From Chryseobacterium oryctis (GTDB lineage Bacteria > Bacteroidota > Bacteroidia > Flavobacteriales > Weeksellaceae), in the NCBI RefSeq assembly GCF_025971925.1, contig NZ_JAPDHV010000003.1, forward strand, positions 321,558-385,557: a stretch of DNA of 64,000 bases. Direction: 5' to 3'. The notes below the pieces were generated by a model, which was not told the DNA's origin, did not search any database, and saw only the letters and a program-made list of their open reading frames with translations. The translations under genes and the position numbers were made by a program. Below are positions 1 through 37,833 of the stretch, piece by piece (position 1 is the first letter of the stretch; every line of letters begins with the position of its first letter).

Positions 1-19
1 TATTCTGATTTATCAGTTG

Positions 20-93
20 CGATCCGGACGGGACTCGAACCCGCGACCTCCGCCGTGACAGGGCGGCATTCTAACCAGCTGAACTACCGGATC
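20..93 (-). tRNA. tRNA-Asp (GTC)
   Basis: The reverse strand folds as a 74-base tRNA. It has a GATCCGG/CCGGATC acceptor stem, a G discriminator, a CCGCC/GGCGG anticodon stem with loop CTGTCAC (anticodon GTC, aspartate), and a T-loop GTTCGAGTC. CCA is not encoded. It is the last copy of a tandem array with a 104-base period. Confidence 0.97.
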
Positions 94-243: not shown

Positions 244-251
244 TGTACTAT

Positions 252-300
252 CTTAATTTTTTGTTTATTCATCGTACTTATAAAAAGTACAAAAATTAAG
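252..300. repeat. Nested inverted repeat near the left junction
   Basis: A 10-base inverted repeat (CTTAATTTTT at 252-261, AAAAATTAAG at 291-300) encloses a smaller hairpin, GTACTT/AAGTAC (274-290). There is no T-run typical of a terminator. Its place just inside the junction suggests a recombination or protein-binding site, but this is inference. Confidence 0.45.
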
Positions 301-318
301 GTAACCGAATTTGCCCCC
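300..318 (+). repeat. Candidate recombinase arm site, left end
   Basis: GGTAACCGAATTT occurs here, 57 bases inside the left junction. The same 13 bases occur inverted at the right end (within 37517-37533), and a one-mismatch copy lies at 37551-37567. Repeats at both ends of an integrase-borne element fit arm-type sites for integrase or excisionase. Confidence 0.5.
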
Positions 319-356
319 TCCTATATTGTAATAATTAATTGCAAATCGTATGGGTG

Positions 357-387
357 CAAAGATAGATATTTTTCCCTTTTCTCCAAA
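357..387 (-). promoter_or_regulatory. Outward promoter toward the stranded tRNA-Asp genes
   Basis: The reverse strand shows TTTG (387-384), a 19-base spacer and TATCTTTG (364-357), which matches the Bacteroidetes consensus TTTG-N19-21-TAnnTTTG. It points left, and transcription would start near 350 and run through the remnant into both downstream tRNA-Asp genes. The native promoter at 37803-37833 has the same layout. Confidence 0.65.
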
Positions 388-473: not shown

Positions 474-677
474 TCATCCAATAATAAGGTGAGCTAATTG
501 CTCATATTTTATTCCTGAATACATACAAAACTCATCGATTGTCAGAAATTCGTTGGGTTGTTTTCTAAGATATTGTCTAATCTTATGCATCAATCTTGTG
601 CTTTGACGATAACTTTTTCCTGTTATACGTTGTATATCCTTCGGATAGATGCAAACCCTGATAATATTCTTTTCCAT
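474..677 (-). CDS. Small conserved hypothetical protein, possible HTH
   Basis: A 67-residue protein. The middle, YPKDIQRITGKSYRQSTRL, followed by an EFLTIDEFCMYSGI segment resembles short proteins common in Bacteroidetes that lack an assigned function. The two segments could form a small helix-turn-helix DNA-binding fold (inference). It is alone on the minus strand between the island's outward promoter and the 916-2525 cluster, and transcription would run toward the left junction. No signal peptide or membrane segment is present. It could be a regulator or directionality factor, but nothing proves this. Confidence 0.6.
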   Translation of the reverse strand: MEKNIIRVCIYPKDIQRITGKSYRQSTRLMHKIRQYLRKQPNEFLTIDEFCMYSGIKYEQLAHLIIG

Positions 678-4394: not shown

Positions 4395-4417
4395 CAAAAA
4401 AGCACCTCAACGGTGCT
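4395..4417 (-). terminator. Terminator overlapping the DUF6527 stop codon
   Basis: On the reverse strand AGCACC-GTTGA-GGTGCT is followed by TTTTTT. The stop codon of the DUF6527 gene (4407-4409) sits in the hairpin loop, so the operon ends with no spare 3' sequence. Confidence 0.8.
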
Positions 4418-4757
4418 TCTTCTTAAAAAACAAATATTTTTTACGTTTGTCTTTTTTACGATTTTCTTTAATTTCCTTTTCTGACCACCTACGGCATTGT
4501 ATAATTTTATTTCTATAAATCCAATAATGCGATTTACAGTCAAAACTCCAATTACCTATAGATGGTGAAAGCGAAACATAATCTCCTTCAAAAATTAATT
4601 TCCAATCCAAAGGTGAAAATGGTGTAACAACTTCAGACTTACAGCCGCAAATACATAAATGTATAGCCGTTCCAAATTCCAGCGAAATATAAAGTACTCC
4701 TTGTTCCAATTTTTTTGGAATAGACTCAACAAATTTATGTGTTAAAATCGCATTCAT
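4407..4757 (-). CDS. DUF6527 family protein, ubiquitin-like operon
   Basis: A 116-residue protein with CICGC, LSPSIGNW and CKSHYWIY motifs typical of DUF6527. The cysteines plus the SHY histidine suggest a bound metal. Known: DUF6527 genes commonly sit beside multi-ubiquitin and ThiF-type E1 genes in bacteria. Its exact job (processing the ubiquitin-like protein, or conjugation) is not settled here. The C terminus is a run of basic residues. It overlaps the E1 gene by 23 bases, so the two are probably translated together, and it is the last gene of the operon. Confidence 0.8.
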   Translation of the reverse strand: MNAILTHKFVESIPKKLEQGVLYISLEFGTAIHLCICGCKSEVVTPFSPLDWKLIFEGDYVSLSPSIGNWSFDCKSHYWIYRNKIIQCRRWSEKEIKENRKKDKRKKYLFFKKKHR

Positions 4758-5913
4758 CTGTTAATTGATTAGAGTTTAAACAATAAATCGAATGATTTTC
4801 ATTAATCAAATCCTGATAAAAACCATACATTTTTTTCCATTTAATAACCGCTAAACCTGCATTTAAAGCATTAAGCTCAGCTATTTGGATATTGGAATTA
4901 TAAGCATTATCTGTAGTTTCATCAAAAGGAAGAAACTTATTAAGATTACCTTTAAAATCTACTGGAAATGAACTTACTCGAATCATGGCAGTAATTTTAT
5001 CCAGAACAAGATCTGCTCCCAAGCCTACATCAATAAAAGCAATACCATTTGCACAAAGATATTCAGCAATATTTTTTCTAGCAGAATTTCGATCAATACA
5101 TAAAAAGACAAAATCTAAAGTTGATAAAATTTCAAGATTTTCTTCATTTAGAAAGGTTTTGGATGACCTTATATTTCTATGCATGTTAGAGTACTTTTCT
5201 TTATAGTATTCCACTTTTGAAATTTCTGAGCATAGTTCCTCAAAAGATGCCGCTCCTGGTGAACGAAATGCATTATGAGTTGAGAAAACATCATTATCAA
5301 TTAAATGAATTTCCGAAACACCTGTTTTAGCCACAAAATCCAGGATATATGCGCCAGTTCCTCCTAATCCAACAATTCCTACTTTTAAATGAGATAGCTT
5401 TTCATTTACAAAGCCAATATTTGCACGGCTGGAATTCGTATCCACATACTGAAACACATTATTTTCCGACAGATTTCTGTGTGGAAAACAAGGTACTTCC
5501 GTAACACTATCATTTAAAGATTTCGCTGGTGCAGAAATAATTTCCGCATAACGTTTAAATTTTTCGTAATAATTTTCGTACCCTTCAGGAGGTTTATTTG
5601 AAAATGCACGATTTATTACAATACCATTTCCTAGATCTTGTGAAGTATCCGTATGGAAAATTGCATTAATTCTTATCCCTTTAATATCACATGGCTGATC
5701 ACCAATAAATTGAATAACATGATTGTCAGGTCTTACCGTGGTAAATCCATTTAATGTTAAGGAACTCACCAACGTACCATATTTAACTTCTCGAAGCGTA
5801 TTTACATAAGGAATGTGGTGGATAAGCAAATATCCACCTTTAAATTCCAAACTAAAACCTTCATTCATCAACTGATGAATATCTGGACTATGATTTATCA
5901 GTTCTTGTAGCAT
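4735..5913 (-). CDS. ThiF-type E1 adenylyltransferase with DUF6791-like N terminus
   Basis: A 392-residue protein. Residues 1-140 look like the DUF6791 domain found before many bacterial E1 enzymes. Residues 175-330 form the adenylating Rossmann core: GLGGTG (182-187), IDND (205-208, binds ATP) and FVFLCIDR (about 269-276). Known role: E1 enzymes activate the C terminus of a ubiquitin-like protein by adenylation. I see no unambiguous catalytic cysteine loop. Cys residues near 286 and in the C-terminal SIYCLNSNQ segment are candidates. It overlaps the multi-ubiquitin gene by 26 bases and the DUF6527 gene by 23. Such operons are related to the bacterial ubiquitin-like (Bil/Bub) anti-phage families. 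Confidence 0.85.
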   Translation of the reverse strand: MLQELINHSPDIHQLMNEGFSLEFKGGYLLIHHIPYVNTLREVKYGTLVSSLTLNGFTTVRPDNHVIQFIGDQPCDIKGIRINAIFHTDTSQDLGNGIVINRAFSNKPPEGYENYYEKFKRYAEIISAPAKSLNDSVTEVPCFPHRNLSENNVFQYVDTNSSRANIGFVNEKLSHLKVGIVGLGGTGAYILDFVAKTGVSEIHLIDNDVFSTHNAFRSPGAASFEELCSEISKVEYYKEKYSNMHRNIRSSKTFLNEENLEILSTLDFVFLCIDRNSARKNIAEYLCANGIAFIDVGLGADLVLDKITAMIRVSSFPVDFKGNLNKFLPFDETTDNAYNSNIQIAELNALNAGLAVIKWKKMYGFYQDLINENHSIYCLNSNQLTDECDFNT

Positions 5914-6178
5914 TAAAAATCATTTTATCTTTAACTTTAACTGATTCCCCAAGGTTTAATACACCTTCCGGTTTATTACCTTGACCTCTTTTAAAAGCAA
6001 CTGTATATGCAGCACTTTCAGAATTTTCAAAATTCCCAAAAGCTATCTTTATAATCTGCACAAAGTTAATTTCCTTTTCATTCCAAACGTTTTCACGCCC
6101 ATTAACATATATAACTACGTCAGGCTTTTTTCCATTGCCATTATTTTGGCTATTTACTGAATTTATATCTAATTCCAT
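5888..6178 (-). CDS. Multi-ubiquitin domain protein (single ubiquitin-like unit)
   Basis: A 96-residue protein. After about 20 flexible residues it shows the multi-ubiquitin pattern: VVIYVNGRE, then W-N-E-K-E-INFVQIIKIAFG, AYTVAFKRG, and a C-terminal LGESVKVKDKMIFNATRTDKS. Only one unit is visible, although family members often carry two or more in tandem. The C terminus is TDKS and lacks the di-glycine of eukaryotic ubiquitin, as is usual in this family. It probably serves as the conjugated modifier activated by the E1 encoded next. It lies 12 bases after the 59-residue protein gene. Confidence 0.85.
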   Translation of the reverse strand: MELDINSVNSQNNGNGKKPDVVIYVNGRENVWNEKEINFVQIIKIAFGNFENSESAAYTVAFKRGQGNKPEGVLNLGESVKVKDKMIFNATRTDKS

Positions 6179-6190
6179 TACTTTAAATTT

Positions 6191-6370
6191 TTAATTGTTT
6201 TTTTCTTTTCTCACTCCTTTGTGAGGTTTTCCATTTTGATTTACATCCAAAAACTTTCCTGTCAGCGTATCTCTTTTTATCCATAAATTATTTTTTGGAT
6301 TAAGAACCTGACTTCTTTGGCGAACAGCTCCTTTTCTGCTATTATCACCAATAGGCTTGTTTACTGCCAT
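6191..6370 (-). CDS. Small basic protein, first gene of the ubiquitin-like operon
   Basis: Translation from the ATG at 6370 gives 59 residues: MAVNKPIGDNSRKGAVRQRS, then a WIKRDTLTGKFLDV block and a PHKGVRKEK tail. I have seen similar short proteins (GDN-RKGAV-K-R-Q...W-KRD-TGKF) in many bacteria, often as orphan genes in variable regions, without a known function. It is basic and has no membrane segment. It lies 12 bases upstream of the multi-ubiquitin gene on the same strand, so it is probably co-transcribed. It could be a nucleic-acid binding partner or a substrate, and that is a guess. Confidence 0.65.
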   Translation of the reverse strand: MAVNKPIGDNSRKGAVRQRSQVLNPKNNLWIKRDTLTGKFLDVNQNGKPHKGVRKEKNN

Positions 6371-6433
6371 TGCTTAAATATTATTTAACTGAAGTACAAT
6401 TAGAACAGGATGTACTCCTTTCCCTGGGCAGGG

Positions 6434-6463
6434 TTGTGATTTATGTAAAAATTATTACATTTG
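6434..6463 (+). promoter_or_regulatory. Promoter of the candidate small RNA
   Basis: TTG (6434-6436), a 19-base spacer and TACATTTG (6456-6463) match the Bacteroidetes promoter consensus. It faces right, opposite to the genes on both sides, and would start RNA near 6469. Confidence 0.7.
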
Positions 6464-6468
6464 TACAA

Positions 6469-6580
6469 CAATAAGAGAGGTAGCTCGGGTGACAAGCCCT
6501 GCTAAAATATTCACGCAATGAAAAAAAAACCTCTAAACATAGACCGATAAGCGCCAACTTATCGGTTTTGCTATTTTTAT
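6469..6580 (+). ncRNA. Candidate structured small RNA
   Basis: Between a good promoter and a hairpin terminator lie about 112 bases on the plus strand, against the direction of both neighbouring operons. The RNA can form an AGAGGT/ACCTCT stem (6476-6481 with 6529-6534) enclosing an AGC..GGG/CCC..GCT hairpin with loop TGACAAG. A start codon at 6518 opens an 11-codon reading frame, MKKKPLNIDR, whose stop falls in the terminator stem. It could be a regulatory RNA, a leader-peptide transcript, or an RNA component of the neighbouring systems. I do not recognise it as a known family. Confidence 0.5.
6543..6580 (+). terminator. Terminator of the small RNA
   Basis: ACCGATAAG pairs with CTTATCGGT around loop CGCCAA and is followed by TTTTGCTATTTTTATTT. 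It may also stop transcripts of the protease gene from the other side. Confidence 0.75.
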
Positions 6581-6606
6581 TTCTACTGTCTGATTAATTT
6601 ATTTAT

Positions 6607-9096
6607 TTAAACTCTTGACACAATTCTAGTTGCATTTTGAATATCTACTACATTGACACCAATAGCGCCTAAATTTTGTTTAACTTCGTTAAAAATAGGT
6701 TTTTCCCTATTTAAATCTGAAATAGTCAGTATGGCTGTAAATGGAATACCTTCTTCTGGAAATTCTTCACCATCTCTCAACAAATATTCAACTTCTAACA
6801 CCCAATCGGTAGTATTGCCTACACCCTTTTTGAAACTTTTTTCATAAATTTTAATTGGGCTCCATTTATAAGAATCTTCAATGAGCTTTTTTTCTTTTAA
6901 TGAGGCATCTGAAGTATCAATTGAATACAAAGGCTCTAAACGTCCCTTTTTACTGCCATTTTGTTGATATTGTCTAAGATGAGCAGTAATGTTTGCTCTA
7001 ACATATTCTGCTCCGAAGCTGTAATTGAGGTGTGGCGTAGAAACTAATGTAAGCTTAGCCTTTCCTTGACATTTATTCTCAGCTACAAGACTTGAGGGCC
7101 AAGAAAAATCGAACTTCATTTTTTTTCTTTCTAAAATTCTTGAAGAAAAAACTAAAGTAATAGAACTGGAATCACCTTGTAGAACTTGGTCAGAACCTAT
7201 AGGTATGCCAAAACCAATAAGGTGCTTCGCGATCTTTTCATACTCTTTCGATTTATATAATTCTGGAATTTCAGAATTGTGATAGCAAAGTGCAAGCAAA
7301 GTTTCTTTTGACATATCTCCTTCAATAGAATTATCTATAGCCGCTAAGGTTTTAGCAACCAAAGGTGCTGAGTAACTAGTTCCACATCCTGTTTCAATTT
7401 CCCCATCTTTATTTATTGATTTTAAACCGGTACCATGTGTAGAATTTGCGGTCCCACTACCTCCAAAGTGACAAAAATCTGGTTTTACACCAACTCTTGA
7501 AACAGGGCCTCTACAGCTATAATTTGATAACGCGTATGGAACAACATTGTCAAGCCCTAACGGATTAATTGCAGTTACACTTATATTTCTACAACTCTCT
7601 GCGGGAACTTTTAGTCTATCATTTCGAGAGGAAATTAAATTACTAAGTGTATCATTAGCATCTAGCGACCATTCTTTTCTAATATCTAAATTATTAGTAA
7701 TATTTCCCGCAGAAATAACAAAAACAATATCGTTTTCTTCCGCAATCGCATCTAATTTCCTAGCTGCAAAACTATATCCTGAAGAAGAAACATGCTCATC
7801 AATATTTAAACTAAAATTAAATATTCGTACTCCAGTTTCTGCTTTTAAAATTTGTATTGCCTCTTCTAATTCGTTGTAAAAGTCTATTGGATTTAAAAAG
7901 TAATCATCAAAACTTGTATTCAACGGTAAAATATCTAAATCAATTATCTCACAACCATCATCTTCTCTACAAATTACATCACCGTTTAAAGATCTTCCAG
8001 AAATGAGCAAACCTGCAATAAATGTCCCATGGTCAACATCGGCATCATCAGCATGCAAAAAATCATGTTTAGCACTGATCCAGTCATTAAAAACTGTAGA
8101 AACTCCGCCGTCAACAATGCCAACCTTCGGATATTTTGAAGCACTTCGTTTTTTAATGCTCGGTGTTTTACCTGTCCCTCCTTTTTTTAAAGCTGACCCC
8201 TTATTAATCTTGGAAGGTAATCCAATAGATTTAACCAAAGGATGTTGATCAATAAAATTGAGAAATTCTTCATGATTGTCTACAGAAAGATTTGTTTCTT
8301 TTTTGAATACTTTTGAATTAGGCGGTAACTCATTATCTGTTAAAATATATGATCTCTCATCCTTATTTAATATCTTAACGCCAATAATATCTTCGAAATT
8401 AGTTCTGTCTGAAATTTTAAACACCAGAGTACCGAAAGGTAAACTCTCTAATCCTTTTAGAAAACTCTCAAATAATTGCACCTTATCGACCTCAAAAACG
8501 TTCCAATCCTTTTTTGCGGGAATGGATTCAAATAACGTTATCAGGTATAATCCGCCAGTTCTCTTATCTGCCAGCCATTCTACGGCATCTTTAGATGAAA
8601 ATTTTCGTCTTTCTTCCCTTCCATAAACAGAAATAGAATCTATGGAGCCTACTTCACTTCTAATCGCAGAAGGGTTGGGCACTTCATTACCATCTTTATC
8701 AAATTTTGTTCTTATATTTTCTTCAGCTTTTTCAACAGTATTTTTTAATTCTGTAATTGCTGTTGAATTTAGCCCCACATAAATCTCTCCTAATTCACCA
8801 CCTCCCACAACTGGCGCCACAGAATTTTTGAACATTCGGGCTGTTGGACGATGACTTTTAGCCAATGCAGACGGTCTTAGCGTTACTTTAGCAAACACAA
8901 ACCTTGAAAATTTATTTTTCTCTTGAAAATTTTCAATACTATCTAATTGAGAAAGTATGTTGTTTTTATGAGCTTTAAACATTGCATTATTTTCAGCAAA
9001 GAAATCTTTATTCGTCCCACCTGGTGGTCGATCATGATTTTGAATAAAATTATCTGCATTTAAAACAACTTGAACTGGAGATTTACCTGATTCCAT
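6607..9096 (-). CDS. S8 family subtilisin-like peptidase paired with an AAA ATPase
   Basis: An 829-residue protein with no signal peptide, so it is probably cytoplasmic. An N-terminal region of about 310 residues precedes the catalytic domain. The triad and oxyanion residues are in their family contexts: Asp329 (GIVDGG), His356 (DHGTF), Asn465 (SAGN) and Ser574 (GTSYSAP). About 230 residues follow as a C-terminal beta-rich domain. It starts 2 bases after the stop of the AAA ATPase gene (TAA-A-ATG), so the two are translated together. Known: AAA plus subtilase pairs recur in bacterial variable regions. Inferred: a protease whose activity is controlled by the ATPase, perhaps in anti-phage defence. 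Confidence 0.9.
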   Translation of the reverse strand: MESGKSPVQVVLNADNFIQNHDRPPGGTNKDFFAENNAMFKAHKNNILSQLDSIENFQEKNKFSRFVFAKVTLRPSALAKSHRPTARMFKNSVAPVVGGGELGEIYVGLNSTAITELKNTVEKAEENIRTKFDKDGNEVPNPSAIRSEVGSIDSISVYGREERRKFSSKDAVEWLADKRTGGLYLITLFESIPAKKDWNVFEVDKVQLFESFLKGLESLPFGTLVFKISDRTNFEDIIGVKILNKDERSYILTDNELPPNSKVFKKETNLSVDNHEEFLNFIDQHPLVKSIGLPSKINKGSALKKGGTGKTPSIKKRSASKYPKVGIVDGGVSTVFNDWISAKHDFLHADDADVDHGTFIAGLLISGRSLNGDVICREDDGCEIIDLDILPLNTSFDDYFLNPIDFYNELEEAIQILKAETGVRIFNFSLNIDEHVSSSGYSFAARKLDAIAEENDIVFVISAGNITNNLDIRKEWSLDANDTLSNLISSRNDRLKVPAESCRNISVTAINPLGLDNVVPYALSNYSCRGPVSRVGVKPDFCHFGGSGTANSTHGTGLKSINKDGEIETGCGTSYSAPLVAKTLAAIDNSIEGDMSKETLLALCYHNSEIPELYKSKEYEKIAKHLIGFGIPIGSDQVLQGDSSSITLVFSSRILERKKMKFDFSWPSSLVAENKCQGKAKLTLVSTPHLNYSFGAEYVRANITAHLRQYQQNGSKKGRLEPLYSIDTSDASLKEKKLIEDSYKWSPIKIYEKSFKKGVGNTTDWVLEVEYLLRDGEEFPEEGIPFTAILTISDLNREKPIFNEVKQNLGAIGVNVVDIQNATRIVSRV

Positions 9097-9097
9097 T

Positions 9098-10261
9098 TTA
9101 ACCTAATTTTGATAAATGTTTACTCACTGAAGATGGCGCAATATTAAATATTTCGGCTACATCTTTTTGCTTGAAATTTAGACTTCGGTCCTCCAACAAT
9201 GAAGAAAGTAATTCATTTCTATTATTTAATAATTCTTTTTTCTCTTTAGACATCCTACCAGAATTGAGAACTGAAAACTCTTTCAACGTATCTAAAATTG
9301 GTTTATTTTTTTCAAGTATATAAACCCTCTTCAACCAATTTGAGAGACTTTTAATATCCGCACCAGAAGCACCGTCCATACACCATGCTAAAAAATTCAT
9401 TTCATTTTCCGAGTACGTAAGTGGTTTTAAAAATGACTCAATAAGCTTTTTCAAAACCACAAGAGATGGTAATGGAATTTCAATTTGAATATCAAATCTT
9501 CTCCATATTGCCGGATCTAGTAAACCTTCATGATTTGTAACCCCTATTGTAAAGCCAGTATCCTTTCGCGTATCTAAGCATTGAAGCAATGTATTCACTA
9601 CCCTTTTAACTTCGCCCACTTCTTGAGAATCATTCCTTAATTTAGCAATCGCATCAAACTCATCCAATAATAAAATGCATTGATACTTATTAGCAAAAGC
9701 AAAAAGATTACCTATATTCCTTGAACTTGTTCCTAAAAACGACGACACCAAGCCGTCCAATCTAGCCAAAACCACAGGCAAACCCGTTTGTTTGGCAAGC
9801 CATTTTGCAAGATGAGTTTTACCTGTCCCTGGCTTTCCAAAAATCAAGCATGACTTTGAAGGTTGTGCGTTAATCTCAGACAACTTGTCGAATTTTTTCC
9901 ACTCATTCACAACAGAAAATACCGCTCTTTTAATATCATCATCAAACAAAGGCATAGCATCAGGCAAATCTTCACTAAAAAACACTTCTGCTAAAGGGGT
10001 CGATGTCTCTTTATCAACAGGAATTTGTGTGTGTTTTGTCAAAATTTCCCCCGCAGGTAAAAAAGATTTTTTAAAATTACTAGGAGACATTTCAACCGAT
10101 TTTTTTCCATTCTCAAGAATATCTCTAATTTTTTCAGCTTCACTCACCATACCTTCTTTTTCATAATAAGACGCAAGACGATCTATTTGTTTTTCTATTG
10201 CTGGAGTTGCAACAGAAATTGATGCTCTACACAGAGATTGAATTATATTAAAGTTTTTCAT
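9098..10261 (-). CDS. AAA ATPase partner of the subtilase
   Basis: A 387-residue protein starting at MKNFNIIQ. A longer frame begins at 10327, but a TATATTTG promoter element just 17 bases upstream of 10261 favours the shorter start. An N-terminal helical region (about 1-100) is followed by an AAA core: Walker A GKPGTGKT (142-149), Walker B LLLDEFD (197-203), sensor GVTNHE (about 240-245) and an arginine finger in WRRFD. The last 25 residues (KQKDVAEIFNIAPSSVSKHL) look like a helix-turn-helix. It probably unfolds or gates substrates for the protease encoded downstream, or senses a trigger. Cytoplasmic. Confidence 0.88.
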   Translation of the reverse strand: MKNFNIIQSLCRASISVATPAIEKQIDRLASYYEKEGMVSEAEKIRDILENGKKSVEMSPSNFKKSFLPAGEILTKHTQIPVDKETSTPLAEVFFSEDLPDAMPLFDDDIKRAVFSVVNEWKKFDKLSEINAQPSKSCLIFGKPGTGKTHLAKWLAKQTGLPVVLARLDGLVSSFLGTSSRNIGNLFAFANKYQCILLLDEFDAIAKLRNDSQEVGEVKRVVNTLLQCLDTRKDTGFTIGVTNHEGLLDPAIWRRFDIQIEIPLPSLVVLKKLIESFLKPLTYSENEMNFLAWCMDGASGADIKSLSNWLKRVYILEKNKPILDTLKEFSVLNSGRMSKEKKELLNNRNELLSSLLEDRSLNFKQKDVAEIFNIAPSSVSKHLSKLG

Positions 10262-10719
10262 TGTAGAATTATTTCCACAAATATACAATAAATTTCCAAT
10301 AATTAAAATTAATTTCCATTTTAGCAACTAATATTTCTAAAAAATAAAATTCAAGCACAACCATTCTTAATGTCAAACAAATAAAAAATTCCTCATAGTA
10401 GGACTAAAACAATTTCGCTTTTAGATTTTAATTTGGTGAGGAAAAAATTACTGCAGTATGTTTAGTAATATCTTTTCCATGGATTTAAGATCAATCGTAG
10501 CACCATCTCATATAATCACACATGTTATCACTTAATTTTTTTAAAAATCCAAATAAGTATTTCTTTTAATTACTACTTTCTTTCTCATATTATAATAGTA
10601 TTCAATTAAATATCCCAATATATTCGCTTTCTAAATACGTTTTTGTTGAGATATGGAAATAAAGAAAGCAAATTAATTTACTTATATTTAGATCAATAAA
10701 AATATACTTTTTTCATACC
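10262..10719. promoter_or_regulatory. Divergent intergenic region with a minus-strand promoter
   Basis: 458 bases separate the divergent AAA and KAP genes. On the minus strand TATATTTG (10285-10278) matches the -7 consensus and would start RNA about 10 bases before the AAA start codon, although no clear TTTG lies at the right distance. On the plus strand only a near match (TATATTTA, about 10684) is seen for the KAP gene. The remainder is AT-rich with no gene or strong structure. Confidence 0.45.
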
Positions 10720-13272
10720 ATGAAAAACGAAATTAAATTAGATAAATTCATTAAATTTTTTGTTCTTACTTTTTTGGCATTATTATCTTTTGGTATAGTC
10801 GATTACCTCATTGAAACAAAATTTATTCTGTATCTATCGAAAATAAGATCAAGCTATCTTCTTGATTTTATATTCTTAATTATACTTTTGGTTTATTCCG
10901 CTTTACAGATAAACAACTGTAAAACGACTTATCCAGATGAGAAGAAAACATTCTACTTATTTTTAATCGTACTATATTATAGTCATATAAGGTTTTTTTC
11001 AGATTTTCAACCGCTGCAGTTAGAAACGGCAAAACACTTTAACAGTCGCCTATTTTATGCCGACATAATCTACGTTGTGCTATTTTTAAATCTTGGAAAC
11101 TATATAAAGTTTTTTTCGTCTAATAACTCTAACGCAAAAAGTAAAATTTTACTCGAAGATGATGCAATTGAGGATTTTGATCAGGATCTTTTAGGTAATT
11201 CTCTAAAACCTTTAGTAGAAAAATTAAACAATATTGTAGACCAGAATAATTTTCAAAAAGCTTTCACCATAGGGATAAATAGTGAATGGGGAACAGGCAA
11301 GACATCTACACTCAATTTATTAAAAAAAGAGCTTGAAAAAACGGAGCATATTATCATCGAATATAATCCGTGGATGGGATTTGACAAAAAAGTTCTTATT
11401 GAAGATTTTTTTAACACTTTATCTGAACACATTGAACAGGACAGTTTAAATAAGGATTTAGACGAATACTCTAATCGATTGCTTACCACGCCGAGTCCAC
11501 TTTTAAAAGATATTACCTCCTATATTCCTTTCCTTAATAACAAAACACCTTCTTTAGAAAAACTATTTAAACTAATAAATAAAAAATTAAAATTATTAAA
11601 TCAAAAAATCATTATCATTATTGACGATGTTGACAGATTAGATAATAAAGAAATATTCGAAATACTGAAATTGATCAGAAATTCTGCCAATTTTACAAAT
11701 ATATTTTTCATTGTTGCTTATGACAGATCTTATGTTAATAACAGCATCGATAATATTAATCATTTTCACGAAAGAAATTATCTCGACAAAATCATAAACA
11801 TAGAACTTTCACTTCCCTATTTCGATCCGACTTTACTTAAAAATACGTTTAAAAATTTATTACTTGAGAAAATTGGATCAGAATATAACGATAAAGTATC
11901 TTATGCGTTAAATAATGGATTTATAGATATTGAAGATCTTTTTAAATTTAGGAAATCGCAAAGTAACTTTACACAGGCTATAAGTAATATGAGAGAAGTG
12001 AAAAAACTGGTTAATTCAATTATCACTAACTATAAAAATATTTTATCTGATATTAATTTCAGTGACATGATCTATCTTGAAATTCTAAAATTAAAATATC
12101 CCTCAATATACCGACTACTCTATACACAAAAAGAAAAAATTCTAATCGAAAGTAAAGGATATTTATTTTTAAAAGCCCGAAATGAAAAAGATAAAGATGG
12201 AAATGATAAAGAAATAAAAATCGTTGAAGAAGTAATTGCAAATATATGTCTTAAAGAAAAAATCGGATATGAGGACAAACAAATGGCAATTGCAATTATA
12301 AATTACTTATTTGATTACTCTGAGACAACAAGGAGTGTTTTTGATTCTGGGTATTCAAGTGATCCGGATAAATTGCTTTCTGTAGATCAGGCTAATAAAT
12401 TTGAAAGATATTTTGCTAATGTTATTTTCGAAAACAATATTTCTGAAAATGATTTCAAATCGTTTCTCCAAACTTCAGAAAATATGATAAGAGAGGCTAC
12501 TATAAACAAATGGATTGCGGAAGGAAAAGAAGATGATCTTAAATATCGATTAGAGAATTTGAAAAATTTTAGTAACAAAGAAGAATTTGAAAATACACTG
12601 AAGTCAATTTTAGCACTTGCTCAATCAAAATCTAATAAAGGGGATTTTCTTATCGGTTTTGATATAAGGAGCTTAAGGGATAAAATAGAAATTAACGGAC
12701 AGCCTGAAGATACACAGCTAAGATTTTACAGTACTCCTAATGAGTATAGGGATTTTATAAATTACCTTCTAAATTCTTCATTCCCGCCACACAGATTGGA
12801 AAGAGAGCTATTGATTTCTGCTTTAAAAGGTCCTTACGATCCCAAATATGGAATGGAATTTCCTCTTACTAAACAAGAAATGCAAAGTAGATTAGAACAA
12901 CGGTTTTATGAACATATTGAAAGCAAACGACCAATGGACTGGGATTTTTGGGGTTTTTATCACAGCACAAAACATCTTAATTCAACTGAAAAATATCAGA
13001 CTACTTTACGTGACTATATTACAAATGATTCTAATCGTAAGGAATTTGCATTAGCTTTGATAGAGCAAATTCCTTTTGAAAAGCTTATTATAATAAGAAA
13101 AGAGTTTATTGAGCAATTATTTGGATCAATCGAAAATTTTGAACTTTATCTTGATAAGATGGGCTTGCCAGGATTGACACAAGAATTTAAGGATATTTAT
13201 TACAAAATCAAAGGAAATAATTGGTTAGGTATTAATTATAAATTCCAAAATATACCCTTTGTTTATCAATAA
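10720..13272 (+). CDS. Membrane-anchored KAP family P-loop NTPase
   Basis: An 850-residue protein. Four hydrophobic segments at about 11-30, 45-64, 77-94 and 110-131 anchor the N terminus in the inner membrane. The KAP NTPase domain follows, with Walker A GTGKTS (191-196) after the family's typical GxW-G start, and Walker B IIIIDDVDRL (about 298-307). The C-terminal 450 residues are helical and unassigned. Known: KAP NTPases occur in plasmid and phage-exclusion systems. Inferred: a single-gene defence or membrane-stress factor. It sits between the AAA-subtilase operon and the island's replication module and is very AT-rich. Confidence 0.88.
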   Translation: MKNEIKLDKFIKFFVLTFLALLSFGIVDYLIETKFILYLSKIRSSYLLDFIFLIILLVYSALQINNCKTTYPDEKKTFYLFLIVLYYSHIRFFSDFQPLQLETAKHFNSRLFYADIIYVVLFLNLGNYIKFFSSNNSNAKSKILLEDDAIEDFDQDLLGNSLKPLVEKLNNIVDQNNFQKAFTIGINSEWGTGKTSTLNLLKKELEKTEHIIIEYNPWMGFDKKVLIEDFFNTLSEHIEQDSLNKDLDEYSNRLLTTPSPLLKDITSYIPFLNNKTPSLEKLFKLINKKLKLLNQKIIIIIDDVDRLDNKEIFEILKLIRNSANFTNIFFIVAYDRSYVNNSIDNINHFHERNYLDKIINIELSLPYFDPTLLKNTFKNLLLEKIGSEYNDKVSYALNNGFIDIEDLFKFRKSQSNFTQAISNMREVKKLVNSIITNYKNILSDINFSDMIYLEILKLKYPSIYRLLYTQKEKILIESKGYLFLKARNEKDKDGNDKEIKIVEEVIANICLKEKIGYEDKQMAIAIINYLFDYSETTRSVFDSGYSSDPDKLLSVDQANKFERYFANVIFENNISENDFKSFLQTSENMIREATINKWIAEGKEDDLKYRLENLKNFSNKEEFENTLKSILALAQSKSNKGDFLIGFDIRSLRDKIEINGQPEDTQLRFYSTPNEYRDFINYLLNSSFPPHRLERELLISALKGPYDPKYGMEFPLTKQEMQSRLEQRFYEHIESKRPMDWDFWGFYHSTKHLNSTEKYQTTLRDYITNDSNRKEFALALIEQIPFEKLIIIRKEFIEQLFGSIENFELYLDKMGLPGLTQEFKDIYYKIKGNNWLGINYKFQNIPFVYQ

Positions 13273-15268: not shown

Positions 15269-16114
15269 TCATAGCAGTTCATCCGCATCATCCATTTTTC
15301 TTGTAAGGACTTCTTTTAGAAAATCCAGAAATTTTGTTCTTGCATTTTTCCTTTCACGCAATTCGAGGAAGCTGCGATGGTATTGCCCGAGGTCTATATT
15401 GAATACTTTTTCGAAAAAGTCTGCAGTTGCGTTTAGTTCCAGCTGTCCATGATTGAGCACTCCTGCGGCATTAATTGCATATATCAATTCAATTAGGGAT
15501 ACTTTTGTGCTTGTCCAATAAACTGCGGACTTTGGCAGAACTTCTGACGAACTTCTGTTTTCTTTCCTATCCAAATTGGACAACTGATCTTCTAAGTATA
15601 CCTGAATAAGGTCATTTGCCATAATTTTCGCGACTTTGAAATCGTGCGAGGTTGTAAACTTGAGGTCTGCTTCGTAGTAAAAATTATCAAGATTTTGCTT
15701 CACGTCAAATGTACCTCTTACAAAATACTTGTAATCTAGGTAGGTACTTTTTGTACGGTAGTATTTGTAAAAATCAAGGTTATCATCGAAATATCTTTTG
15801 AGTTTTTCGAGCTCGTTATTATAATATTTCTTTAATACACGGATACTCCCCGAAGGTTTTTTAGTTTCTATACGATAAACGGAGTTGTAATAAATTCTTT
15901 TTGATGTAAACTGAGGTTTTATTTCTTTAAAGAAGTTAATTTCTTCAGCATCCGATTTGAAGGTCGTCCTTAAAATTTCTCTTTTTGCAACCTGTATAGC
16001 TTTTACAGTTATTTCAACTGACTTCTCACATTTCAGAAGGATATCATCGACTTCTATGTCAATGAAATTGAGTTGCTCTGCAAGGTTTAATAAAAGTATT
16101 TCGATTTTATACAT
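15269..16114 (-). CDS. RteC family protein
   Basis: A 281-residue protein starting at MYKIEILL; a start 10 codons upstream is possible. The order FFKEIKPQFTSKRIYYNSVYRIE, then FDDNLDFYKYYR, DYKYFVRG and a C-terminal KVSLIELIYAINAAGVLN is typical of RteC. Known: RteC of the Bacteroides element CTnDOT controls excision genes. Here it is probably a regulator or assembly factor of the island. Its presence without conjugation genes suggests descent from a CTnDOT-like element that lost transfer functions. Confidence 0.85.
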   Translation of the reverse strand: MYKIEILLLNLAEQLNFIDIEVDDILLKCEKSVEITVKAIQVAKREILRTTFKSDAEEINFFKEIKPQFTSKRIYYNSVYRIETKKPSGSIRVLKKYYNNELEKLKRYFDDNLDFYKYYRTKSTYLDYKYFVRGTFDVKQNLDNFYYEADLKFTTSHDFKVAKIMANDLIQVYLEDQLSNLDRKENRSSSEVLPKSAVYWTSTKVSLIELIYAINAAGVLNHGQLELNATADFFEKVFNIDLGQYHRSFLELRERKNARTKFLDFLKEVLTRKMDDADELL

Positions 16115-16156
16115 AGCTGATTTCTTAAATAAAAAAAGAGGCAAAAGCCTCCTTCA

Positions 16157-32535: not shown

Positions 32536-33483
32536 TTATTTGATTAAACCTAAGTCCAATCCAATATCTACGTAAAGTTTGGAAAAAGGTCTTTTATGAA
32601 TTTCGTCTACATTGGTATAATTACCTAGTATCATACGGTCTATTTCATTTTCGGAAAATACAAGTCCATGTTCTTTATATTTCTCTAAGTAATCTCTATA
32701 TGTAGTTGAATACTTAATTTTACTTTTAATTACAAGCTCCACAACATGATCTGTATGAAGATTATACAGTTCTTGGAGTTTAAACACATCAATATTGCCC
32801 TGAGGCGCTTTAAGATGAACCTCAACTGAATGCTTGTCTAATAATGATCCTAAAATACCACTAGACGTTGGTTTATAAGAAAATAGGAATTGGTCATTTT
32901 CTATTAAATAGGGGTTTATTAACCCTTTGCGTACTGGATCTAGCTCACCTTTTACCTCAAGGCCATTGCATGTCTGACAACTTGGAATTAAGTTATAAAA
33001 AGTCATTGCCAAAAACGGATACTTGGCTTTCGGGTAGAAATGATCAATCTGAGGCTTGACGTTATTCTTTTTAGATAGGTAGTAAATATAGTTTCTGTTA
33101 CAATATGGACATGTATCTATATTAATGCCCGAGATAAAATCATATTTACTAAACACATCTGTTTTATCATAACAACTGGCCACAAAAATATTATACAAAA
33201 TCTTTGAAGAATCGCTATCTGAATTAAAAAAGTCCGGAAAATATTTCTTCATACTAGCAATTGTACTGTGAATACTCTCAGGTTTCAGTAATATCAATTG
33301 TTTAAGATTATCCCCTGTTAAAAGATGCTTCAGGTAGCCTCGCAATATCGTATCTGGAGCAATAGGATTACCATCCTTTTTTATTCCATTTTTTAATACG
33401 TTTTTAATACGTTGTTTAAGAGGTTTTTCTATTTTGATAAAATGTGCCTCAGCAGCGGCTGAATTTTCTTTTAATTTAATCAT
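32536..33483 (-). CDS. HNH endonuclease, Septu PtuB-like
   Basis: A 315-residue protein with an HNH/zinc-finger core: Cys125-x2-Cys128 (CPYCNRN), IDHFYPKAKYPF (Asp147-His148), Asn164 and Cys169-x2-Cys172-Asn (CQTCNG). This arrangement is typical of PtuB of the Septu defence system and of retron Ec78-like effectors. Its start overlaps the end of the ATPase gene by 8 bases. Known: Septu combines an ATPase (PtuA) with an HNH nuclease (PtuB) and blocks phages. No retron reverse transcriptase is nearby. Confidence 0.85.
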   Translation of the reverse strand: MIKLKENSAAAEAHFIKIEKPLKQRIKNVLKNGIKKDGNPIAPDTILRGYLKHLLTGDNLKQLILLKPESIHSTIASMKKYFPDFFNSDSDSSKILYNIFVASCYDKTDVFSKYDFISGINIDTCPYCNRNYIYYLSKKNNVKPQIDHFYPKAKYPFLAMTFYNLIPSCQTCNGLEVKGELDPVRKGLINPYLIENDQFLFSYKPTSSGILGSLLDKHSVEVHLKAPQGNIDVFKLQELYNLHTDHVVELVIKSKIKYSTTYRDYLEKYKEHGLVFSENEIDRMILGNYTNVDEIHKRPFSKLYVDIGLDLGLIK

Positions 33484-35971
33484 TTTCCTTCAGTTTTTTC
33501 AGTTCTGCTTCTAGTTCTTCAATTCGCTTTTCTTTATCAAACATGGAATAATACATATCTAATAATTTATTCCTTAAAAATGGTTCCCCTATAAGATTAA
33601 TATTCTGAAGTAAATCTGTTTTATTTTCTCTGTGATCTATTGCTTGTTTAGACTTATTAAGTTGCTTAATCAAATCATTGATTTTTTCTAGAGCGAATTC
33701 TCCAATTACACCTTTCCTAAGAAAAAAATTGTGCGCTAACAAGTCATGAATATTGGCACCAAATGTATTATATGAATTATTGAGTATTTCAGGTCTAGCG
33801 CTATCATTTAGAAACAGAATATTTTGTTGAGGAATATCTGAAAGGATGAACGGCGAATGTGTAACAAATAAAAAATTTACACTTTTAATCATTTTAAACT
33901 TGATCGTAGATAATACTTTGATTAAATCATTGATAAATAAGCGTTGGTATTCTGGATGAAAATACAATTCTATTTCATCCAAAATCACATTTATATTCTT
34001 AAAATTGTAAGTTGGCTTTATATTAATCGCCTTAATAGCTCGCATCTTACTTGTTGCCTCAGATGTTACAGAATCAATATTTTTGAGGTGGTATACTATG
34101 GAACTGATAATTGAATTCTTTTGATACTCACCAGAGCTTAGTTTATTAATATTGATATCAGCATCCCCAGAAGAAACAGATTTTAAAAATATATCTGTTT
34201 CGAAAACTCTTGGGGGTAGATACAATATTCTTTCTCTCAGCTTTTGTTTCTGAATCACTTCATTAATACTGTCATTTAACTCTTTAATATCTACCATGCC
34301 TCCCTGATCTACAAATTTGCGATATAAGTTGACAAGCTTTGCTTTGGGATCTTTTAATGCTAGCTCAAGCATTCTTTTTGACTGGCGCAGCTTAAGTGAT
34401 ATATGCGAGTTATCTCCTTTTGATATCTTGTCTAAAAACTCCTTATGCGCAATGGTTGTAATTTTAGGATTTAAATGTAGGTTTGCTGAGAAATATACAA
34501 TTGTATCATATCTATTATAATCCCTATATTTTGGGTAACTAATAGATTTATAACTTTTTATTACACAATAATAAAAAAGTGAATTCTCAAAACTAAACTT
34601 TTTACTACTGAACATTTCGTTACTAGTGATACCAAAATAAGTCTTCCAAAAATTGAAGTAGATTGTTAATGTTTGAAATAAATTGTAGGCGTAAAAATTA
34701 AAATTACCTATTTCTGAAATAATATATTTGATCTTCTCTTTGATCCCCAGATCTTCTACCTGATTTATTAATTTTTCATAAGCCATTGCAAAAGTGACAC
34801 TTCCAGGGTTAAAATCTTTTATTAAATTTTTTGCAAAATACAATACTACTGCGCTTGCCACATCAGAATATGTTTCATTCTTTTTAGGCGCAAACAACTT
34901 TATTTTTTTTCTTTTAATAACTTGCTTAAAGCGGTCGAGTAGTATTACATTTTCTTGTAAAAAATCGTAGTATTGGGTAATAACATCAACCGACCATTTG
35001 TTATCACTTCTACGTGAAGTTGTTGCGAATTGATTTTCAATAGTATGGTAATCATTTCTCTCAAGATTATGTAAGTCTATTACCTTATCTAAATACTCTT
35101 CCAAAGGGTCTTTATCTTTAAACGTCAATTGAACCTTGTCTGCTATTAAATCATCAGTGATGTGAAATTCATTATTAATCTCATCTAGAATTAAACTAAG
35201 TAATCTCTGCGAAACTAAATATTTTTCGTTTCGAATGTACACTTGCCCTGCTTCCCGAAAGGGATGTAAGACTATTGGTGTTTGATATCCATCATTTTTA
35301 TGAAAAATCTGAGTTAACCATGATTCCTTTTTAGTGGGCGATTCAGCAATATCTATTTTTTCAATATATTTACTCTCGTCGCAGTAGTCCCCATCATCCA
35401 GTCCATATATAGAATAGTTAATATACATCGTAAAAAATAGATCTTCTAAATCTATAAGCTCATCCCTATAAGTATCTGTAGTTTTACCTATTGAATTAAA
35501 TAGTAGTTTGTCTTCCTGATAAAACTTTGCAATAATTGAAGGTTTGTCTTTTCTAATTTTTACATTGCGTGAATCAATATAGATCTGACTAATTTTTCCA
35601 TTGATTTCGAAATACAAACGAGCATGTACATTCTCCGCAAAATACAAACTATCCGTAACCTCTCCAATTTTGTATTGTTTGTAAAAATTATTTAATATCC
35701 TAATAATCAACTCGACTATTGAACTTTTTCCTTTTCCGTTTTTCCCTACGACAGCTTGAATATTAATACTTTCCAAGGTGGATTGCCTTCTGCTACGATC
35801 TAAAAAGAAATTAGGAGGAACTGCTTCGACTTCATTTTTTATTACTCTATTTGCTTTACTATTAAATGAATAATTGTTGTCAAAAGAGTAAAACAAATCT
35901 TTTGACAAGTTTTTTAGCACTGTATCCCCACATCCACTTAAAGGCTGAACACCAATAATTTTAAAACTCAT
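33476..35971 (-). CDS. AAA/ABC-type ATPase, Septu PtuA-like
   Basis: An 831-residue protein with an ABC/SMC-like ATPase split by a long insertion. Walker A GKNGKGKS (76-83), a signature region LSSGEYQKN (about 620), Walker B VILDEIELYF (about 665) and the H-loop THSPFIL (about 710). A coiled coil ends the protein (EKRIEELEAELKKLK). This is the layout of PtuA of Septu, but longer than a typical PtuA of about 500-700 residues, so it may be a long variant. It is co-translated with the HNH gene. Both lie just inside the right end of the island, where defence cargo is common. Confidence 0.82.
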   Translation of the reverse strand: MSFKIIGVQPLSGCGDTVLKNLSKDLFYSFDNNYSFNSKANRVIKNEVEAVPPNFFLDRSRRQSTLESINIQAVVGKNGKGKSSIVELIIRILNNFYKQYKIGEVTDSLYFAENVHARLYFEINGKISQIYIDSRNVKIRKDKPSIIAKFYQEDKLLFNSIGKTTDTYRDELIDLEDLFFTMYINYSIYGLDDGDYCDESKYIEKIDIAESPTKKESWLTQIFHKNDGYQTPIVLHPFREAGQVYIRNEKYLVSQRLLSLILDEINNEFHITDDLIADKVQLTFKDKDPLEEYLDKVIDLHNLERNDYHTIENQFATTSRRSDNKWSVDVITQYYDFLQENVILLDRFKQVIKRKKIKLFAPKKNETYSDVASAVVLYFAKNLIKDFNPGSVTFAMAYEKLINQVEDLGIKEKIKYIISEIGNFNFYAYNLFQTLTIYFNFWKTYFGITSNEMFSSKKFSFENSLFYYCVIKSYKSISYPKYRDYNRYDTIVYFSANLHLNPKITTIAHKEFLDKISKGDNSHISLKLRQSKRMLELALKDPKAKLVNLYRKFVDQGGMVDIKELNDSINEVIQKQKLRERILYLPPRVFETDIFLKSVSSGDADININKLSSGEYQKNSIISSIVYHLKNIDSVTSEATSKMRAIKAINIKPTYNFKNINVILDEIELYFHPEYQRLFINDLIKVLSTIKFKMIKSVNFLFVTHSPFILSDIPQQNILFLNDSARPEILNNSYNTFGANIHDLLAHNFFLRKGVIGEFALEKINDLIKQLNKSKQAIDHRENKTDLLQNINLIGEPFLRNKLLDMYYSMFDKEKRIEELEAELKKLKEND

Positions 35972-36199: not shown

Positions 36200-37426
36200 T
36201 TATTGCACCTTTCTGTACTCTAATTTTTCTCTTAGTATAACCATATCTTCACTTACTTTCTTATCTAGAATTTTTGCGTAATGTTGGGTTGTCTTAATGC
36301 TTTTATGACCAAGCATTTTACTGACAGATTCAATAGAAACACCATTGGATAAAGTAACGGTCGTTGCAAAAGTATGTCGCGCAATGTGATACGTAAGCTC
36401 CTTATCGATTCCGCATAAATCTGCTATTTCTTTGAGATAGGCATTCATCTTTTGATTGCTAAGAACGGGAAGTAACTTACCAGAATTAATACAAATAGGA
36501 TGAGTTTGGTATTGTTCAATAATTTTTTCTGCTTGTGGTAATAGTGGGATGTTTGAAGTGGTTTTGGTCTTTTGACGTGTTGTGAAAATCCATTTGTTAC
36601 CATCTAATCCTAAATTGATATTCTGTTGTGTCAATTTTTGCGTATCGATATAAGCCAATCCAGTAAAACAACTGAACAGGAAAACATCCCGAACCTGAGA
36701 TAATCTTTCATTTCGTAAATCCTTGGTAAAGAGCTTTTCTATTTCCTGCTCGTTAAGAAACTGACGCGTAACCTCATTAAATTTAGAATGATAATTGACG
36801 AAAGGATCTCTTTCTATCCACCCATTTGCAAGACAGATGCGAATGATCTTTCCAAAGTTCTTGATGTACTTTACTGCAGAATTATTGTTGCAGGATTTTT
36901 CGGTTCTCAGATAAAACTCAAAGTCATTAAGAAAAGCATAATCTATCTTACGGACATCAATATCGCTGAGGTTAAACTTCCACTTCAGAAACTCTTTGGT
37001 GTGACTGATACAGGTCTTATATCTCGTCAAAGTTCCCTGTGCGAATTCTTTATCTATCAAAGCTTCCATTCGGTTATTATGATCCTGGAAAATCGGGATG
37101 AGCATTCTGCTTTTTTGTAGGGTTCCGAGTAGCTTGTTCTTGAGAGTATCTACTGACACTAAATCGCCTTCCTGCACTATTTCTTTTTGTGCATCGTGTA
37201 CTTTTGCTTTCAAAATATCCAAATAGGCATTTAGCGACCTTGCTTCCTCGGAACTTCCTTTCATACGACTTTGCTCTTGACTCCATTTTTCAGGCGTTAC
37301 AAAACGTTTGGAGCTAATCTCCAAGCGTACTCCGTCAATTGTGATTCGTAAATAAATGGGAACTAAACCTGCGACACTGGTTTTGGCTCTTTTAGCATAA
37401 AAGAGAATGGAAATTTTGGCATTCAT
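36200..37426 (-). CDS. Tyrosine recombinase (site-specific integrase) of the island
   Basis: A 408-residue protein with an N-terminal arm-binding domain (1-90), a core-binding SAM-like domain (about 105-205) and a catalytic domain (215-405). Catalytic residues: Lys286, His347-x-x-Arg350 (HIAR), His374 (GHKS) and nucleophile Tyr383 (HYAKI). At the first Arg position (FTGLAYID) there is Ala258 instead of Arg. Known: the CTnDOT integrase also lacks this Arg (it has Ser), so activity is not excluded. It lies 245 bases from the right junction in tRNA-Asp and presumably integrates and excises the island. Confidence 0.9.
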   Translation of the reverse strand: MNAKISILFYAKRAKTSVAGLVPIYLRITIDGVRLEISSKRFVTPEKWSQEQSRMKGSSEEARSLNAYLDILKAKVHDAQKEIVQEGDLVSVDTLKNKLLGTLQKSRMLIPIFQDHNNRMEALIDKEFAQGTLTRYKTCISHTKEFLKWKFNLSDIDVRKIDYAFLNDFEFYLRTEKSCNNNSAVKYIKNFGKIIRICLANGWIERDPFVNYHSKFNEVTRQFLNEQEIEKLFTKDLRNERLSQVRDVFLFSCFTGLAYIDTQKLTQQNINLGLDGNKWIFTTRQKTKTTSNIPLLPQAEKIIEQYQTHPICINSGKLLPVLSNQKMNAYLKEIADLCGIDKELTYHIARHTFATTVTLSNGVSIESVSKMLGHKSIKTTQHYAKILDKKVSEDMVILREKLEYRKVQ

Positions 37427-37567: not shown

Positions 37568-37610
37568 CCCTACGTTTTGTAAAAAACTATATTTTTTGAG
37601 ATGCCATAAA

Positions 37611-37646
37611 AACAAAAAGCCTTTAAATCATACGATTTAAAGGCTT
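37611..37646 (-). terminator. Terminator after the right-end tRNA-Asp
   Basis: On the reverse strand AAGCCTTTAAATC-GTAT-GATTTAAAGGCTT is followed by TTTTTG. It lies inside the island 26 bases from the tRNA 3' end. It would stop tRNA transcripts and thus isolate the two other array copies from their original promoter. Confidence 0.75.
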
Positions 37647-37670
37647 TTGTGAGGTTTTACCTCTTTTGTG

Positions 37671-37687
37671 GCGATCCGGACGGGACT
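37671..37687. repeat. Right attachment repeat in tRNA-Asp
   Basis: The same 17 bases as 227-243, at the 3' end of the restored tRNA-Asp. The junction between island and host is within this repeat. Confidence 0.85.
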
Positions 37688-37745
37688 CGAACCCGCGACC
37701 TCCGCCGTGACAGGGCGGCATTCTAACCAGCTGAACTACCGGATC
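37672..37745 (-). tRNA. tRNA-Asp (GTC), restored copy at the right junction
   Basis: It is identical in sequence to the copies at 20-93 and 124-197, with anticodon GTC. Its 5' part is host sequence and its 3' end comes with the island repeat. Upstream sequence differs from the array spacer, so this was the first gene of the array and its promoter (37803-37833) is the native one. Confidence 0.97.
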
Positions 37746-37802: not shown

Positions 37803-37833
37803 CAAAACTACAACTTTTTTCCTTTCCTGCAAA
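37803..37833 (-). promoter_or_regulatory. Native promoter of the tRNA-Asp array
   Basis: On the reverse strand TTTG (37833-37830), 19 bases, TAGTTTTG (37810-37803), with the tRNA beginning 58 bases downstream of the -7 box. It has the same layout as the outward promoter at 357-387. Confidence 0.65.

Follow-up and report, generated by a model that had tools for sequence, protein, structure and literature searches.

A site at the left end of a genomic island in Chryseobacterium oryctis has the sequence form of a housekeeping (sigma-A type) promoter directed outward, and we infer that it is active. With middling confidence, it is read as the sigma-A promoter of the island's attachment module, whose main job would be transcription of attP in the excised circle, restart of the interrupted tRNA-Asp array being a probable by-product. 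The window referred to below is the whole 64,000-nt stretch of DNA that was analysed.

The outward promoter and the split tRNA-Asp array

Sigma-A promoters of Bacteroidota carry a TTTG or TTG box upstream of the -7 box. The outward site consists of a -33 box TTTG at 384-387 (1.92 bits per column over 18 distinct family sequences) and a -7 box TATCTTTG at 357-364, both on the minus strand and separated by a spacer of 19 nt; an alternative TTTG at 391 gives a spacer of 23. With the -7 box of the phylum given as TANNTTTG (PMC9723704), the site has the sigma-A sequence form, and its transcription start is predicted near 352 using the box-to-start distance for TANNTTTG from the same source. A consensus promoter at 357-387 directed toward stranded tRNA-Asp genes had been proposed earlier, and its motif, strand, and spacer were all found in the sequence. 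The layout had also been said to equal that of the native tRNA-Asp promoter, TTTG-N19-TAGTTTTG at 37803-37833 (minus strand, 57 nt from the tRNA), which is correct and of little weight, the form being the ordinary one for promoters of the phylum. Within 1-500, the minus strand has no other site of the form TTTG-N17-23-TANNTTTG. Over the whole window, the minus strand has three exact TTTG-N19-TANNTTTG sites, one of which (39381) is not at a known promoter, and the plus strand has none; of 5000 dinucleotide shuffles made from 244-500 (outward strand), 0.14% contained the exact form. A sigma-70 scan was set aside because the model does not suit promoters of Bacteroidota.

The island entered a tRNA-Asp gene, whose displaced 3' end forms the attL core (17 bp, repeat family D4) at 227-243. 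Between this core and the promoter lies a stretch of 113 nt (244-356, minus strand), delimited by aligning the 27 family ends. It contains, at about 300-322, an integrase-arm-like repeat, which would be an arm site to judge from the repeats at both island ends. At the other end of the island, the tyrosine recombinase (integrase) gene int (408 aa; Pfam Arm-DNA-bind_5, Phage_int_SAM_5, and Phage_integrase) is at 36200-37426, and the restored tRNA-Asp at attR, still driven by the native promoter, is at 37669-37745 (ARAGORN), both on the minus strand. Outside the left end, ARAGORN found two intact tRNA-Asp (GTC) genes at 123-197 and 19-93 (minus strand), the latter adjoining a scaffold gap. The gap, a run of 100 N, immediately precedes the window and is flanked on both sides by the same 121 bp (L005 1838-2058), as would be expected from an assembler at an unresolved repeat, and the size of the tRNA-Asp array is probably wrong in the assembly. 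The two orphan tRNA-Asp genes of the original prediction are real as genes, and their number is to be read as at least two because the window starts beside the scaffold join. All five exact genome matches to the 17-base tRNA-Asp 3' end were within the split array, in a search that would miss a tRNA-Asp copy with a different 3' end. A terminator-like hairpin lies behind the stranded genes (L005), so a transcript from the outward promoter would cover them. A 67-aa ORF at 474-677 (minus strand), without a Pfam match, reads toward the island end and stops 87 nt before the promoter.

Conservation of the site among related islands

Relatives were found by integrase and att-core searches. The integrase search over 173 genomes of the genus gave 65 with a match at E <= 1e-140; a following search for the tRNA 3'-end core placed it in 31 genomes, and the far ends were fetched and linked to integrases by contig and orientation alone, some being on other contigs. 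From 31 partial-core entries, L074 and L012 (one place with a broken tRNA, not attL), L085 (same place as L108), and L100 (cut by a contig end) were dropped, and the 27 usable far ends of the tRNA-Asp-I group included 18 distinct ones. Left-end DNA was also tried as a query over 59 genomes and matched in three, the window's own and two at 24-29 nt only.

The exact motif was present in 25 of the 27 tRNA-Asp-I far ends, 113-116 nt from the att core, and the spacer was N19 in all 27; the two inexact ends scored 8 (L104) and 9 (L138) of 10. A score of 10 was reached in 0 of 1080 mononucleotide shuffles, and reverse strands reached 8 at best. Identity among distinct ends was 0.97 in the -33 box and 0.92 in the -7 box vs 0.43 in the 80 nt upstream of the -33 box; in sequence, the well-conserved attachment module stops at the promoter. 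Family islands apparently lie in tandem in one tRNA-Asp array, with their integrases in a row, in G079 and G109 (L108, L113-L115).

A tRNA gene was counted as stranded when it was intact and within 130-nt steps of the core. By this definition, one to three intact tRNA-Asp genes stand behind the core in 16 of the 27 ends and none in 11, five of which have one common end sequence, while L109 runs off the contig shortly past the core. The exact motif was found in 15/16 ends with a stranded tRNA vs 10/11 without (Fisher p = 1), and in 12/13 vs 5/6 when distinct ends were counted. One identical end sequence occurs with no stranded gene (L107) and with one (L119).

In the tRNA-Phe relatives (12 regions, with L188 and L195 unused since they held intact tRNAs), an outward promoter-like site lies at 111-116 nt in 9 of 10 ends, with scores of 8-10 and three perfect matches; mononucleotide shuffles scored >=9 in 2.3% and 10 in 0.25% of cases, and one of ten reverse strands scored 9. 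These ends have a terminator-like hairpin 21-65 nt behind the core and no intact tRNA within 130 nt. The tRNA-Phe is not single-copy, an intact one lying 0.5-1.2 kb further on at two of the ten partial-core loci (L178 and L184). In a second tRNA-Asp group, TANNTTTG stands at a gap of 112-113 in five of six ends with a poor -33 box, and most scores are inside the null (8 was reached in 29% of shuffles). The closer tRNA-Ser group (20 regions, five with intact tRNAs unused) has a -7 box at a gap of 115-116 in 15/15 ends, with a final A, not G, and total scores of 8-9 that are inside the shuffle null (>=8 in 25%). Five more distant ends (from 11 regions, six with intact tRNAs unused) gave the full motif twice and the -7 box alone three times, at gaps of 110-159; a bare -7 box turns up in 10% of shuffles. 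The match to the consensus differs between groups, and the tRNA-Ser islands may be without an active promoter. A conserved palindrome, TTTTAC-TAC-GTAAAA or near, was seen at the position of the outward -7 box in tRNA-Ser islands (L141-L158).

Since the motif is kept where nothing is stranded and in tRNA-Phe islands, the promoter seems to go with the attachment module of the integrase family and not with the stranded genes. This bears on the original prediction that the promoter rescues the stranded tRNAs. Rescue of the tRNA-Asp genes here is plausible from the arrangement, the site being conserved, outward, and the sole one of its kind between the left end and the genes, with the hairpin behind them; that the promoter was made for rescue was not supported, as it is equally kept in tRNA-Asp islands without a tRNA behind the core and in the tRNA-Phe relatives. 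Rescue fails to explain the promoter in islands that strand nothing.

The terminator-like hairpin at the integrase end

An island-borne terminator-like hairpin with a T-run was predicted by folding at 37607-37650 (minus strand), right after the restored tRNA and between att and int; the fold of 37600-37672 had -29.3 kcal/mol and a z of -7.3. Such a hairpin was found at most 110 nt past the tRNA in all 29 tRNA-Asp int ends with a readable core (L090 and L094, which had no core, were excluded from the int-side count) and, among 29 int ends whose target was another gene or that of the second group, in all but L025 (28 of 29). By eye, both hairpin arms vary together in the tRNA-Asp alignment. Transcription from the native promoter is probably closed off at the integrase end of the island, as far as sequence and fold can indicate.

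Transcripts across the joined ends of the circle were modelled for 14 cases, in which the hairpin still folded with a mean pair probability of 0.85-0.97 and no sign of a competing fold was seen. With this hairpin still folded in its path, transcription from the promoter may need processive antitermination to get to int; on these models, either there would be an unseen antitermination step or the RNA would end before int. Folding cannot reveal a polymerase-modifying antiterminator RNA. Folding gave no support to an antiterminator formed by the leader pairing with the terminator arm, and a short leader/arm match seen by eye was lost where the terminator changes. In the int 5' regions, an inverted repeat GTTCAG..CTGAA before a ATCTTGTG box was seen in many tRNA-Asp relatives and less clearly in the window; it is possibly an operator over the int promoter.

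Role of the promoter and comparison with known systems

The promoter would be part of the end away from the integrase in a family of tyrosine-recombinase islands that insert into tRNA genes. Excision would join this far end to the integrase end, and the promoter would then face int across attP; its main job would be to transcribe attP in the circle, as with ICEclc Pcirc and Tn916 Porf7. In the integrated island it would fire outward, with a transcript that would pass the displaced core, reach the first stranded tRNA after about 155 nt, and continue to the host terminator (the L005 hairpin). Since the insertion hit a tRNA-Asp gene with at least two more such genes behind it, the array would probably be restarted as a by-product. 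The geometry argues for the circle role, int (on the minus strand, like the promoter) being ahead of the promoter once the ends join, as do the fixed motif in the tRNA-Asp-I ends, the tRNA-Phe sites, and the second-group -7 boxes. The terminator-like hairpin between att and int argues against it, together with the final A of the tRNA-Ser -7 boxes, the poor second-group -33 boxes, and the variable gaps in the distant ends.

If the promoter were instead kept in the first place to restart the cut-off host genes, with the terminator closing the first half, one tRNA operon would become two working ones. Most tRNA-Asp-I ends (16/27) do leave one to three intact tRNA-Asp genes behind the core, this group has the best consensus match, and the hairpin at one end and the promoter at the other are both conserved. 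However, the motif is no less intact where the core precedes no tRNA, one end sequence occurs both with no stranded gene (L107) and with one (L119), tRNA-Phe islands, where a terminator-like hairpin stands 21-65 nt past the core, have perfect or near-perfect sites, and the second tRNA-Asp group targets an array too, yet its -33 box is poor; we consider this account rather doubtful. A related proposal, that the island ends are a matched terminator/promoter cassette that splits a tRNA operon in two and was selected since the family often lands in tRNA-Asp arrays, is unlikely in our judgement.

It is also conceivable, at a clearly lower probability, that int is not the target and that the promoter either makes a short RNA (leader, att core, and terminator; about 180 nt in the circle) or controls recombination by sending polymerase through the arm and core sites. 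The terminator-like hairpin past att in the circle would suit this account, as would the one found in nearly every scored integrated far end behind the core or behind the last stranded gene, although arm-like DNA repeats can account for the conservation of the leader. A functionless chance match is highly improbable: the DNA is AT-rich and one of the three exact matches over both strands of the window (39381) is away from known promoters, but position and spacing are fixed in 25/27 family ends beside a diverged flank, and the shuffles gave the motif in 0.14% of cases.

Transcription in the circle, the reading preferred here, has counterparts in other elements. ICEclc has a tRNA target. In Pseudomonas knackmussii B13, its promoter Pcirc is outward, at the end opposite to int, and is placed before int by circularization (PMC2704930, PMC2892462). 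The island resembles it in having an outward promoter opposite int that faces int in the circle, here by geometry alone; it differs in phylum and promoter type and in the conserved terminator-like hairpin between att and int, which by our own criterion leaves no free run to int. In Tn916, Porf7 near one end reads across the joined circle ends to drive DNA-processing and conjugation genes, with the insulating terminator T1 near the other end, and the antiterminator RNA canT is active at 341 and 452 nt (PMC11658703). An insulating terminator near the far end is shared, here by sequence and fold, whereas the leader here is 113 nt, the next gene is int, and an antiterminator was not found by folding. 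SXT supplies a promoter for the prfC gene that it interrupts, which is similar as the idea of an element-borne promoter serving a host gene. Unlike SXT, whose site in prfC is the 5' end of a protein gene (PMC3715440), the island enters at the 3' end of a tRNA and has complete tRNA genes on the far side. ICEEaIII and ICECspPOL2 of Elizabethkingia and Chryseobacterium insert at tRNA genes, including tRNA-Asp-GTC, and are alike by target site; the main text of PMC8694125, which describes them, does not contain the word "promoter". A literature search on islands in tRNA operons gave nothing matching, as judged by titles and abstract openings.

A circle or outward promoter combined with an end terminator is a known kind of arrangement, and the variant here is new. 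It gives a family-wide handle on transcription at island ends, with a terminator on the side where host transcription comes in and a promoter on the side where it goes out. Two questions thereby become accessible to testing: whether a tRNA operon can be divided by an island at no cost, and whether these bacteria, too, have circle-specific transcription as in ICEclc and Tn916.

No relaxase or conjugation families were found among the 27 window proteins scanned with Pfam, which are part of the island's proteins. A protein of the RteC family, known from Bacteroides conjugative elements, is encoded at 15269-16144 (Pfam). Defence-like cargo lies at 4407-13272 and 32536-35971 and includes multiubiquitin and ThiF genes, an IetA-IetS pair, a KAP NTPase with a PifA match, and a PDC-M62A/B pair adjoining int.
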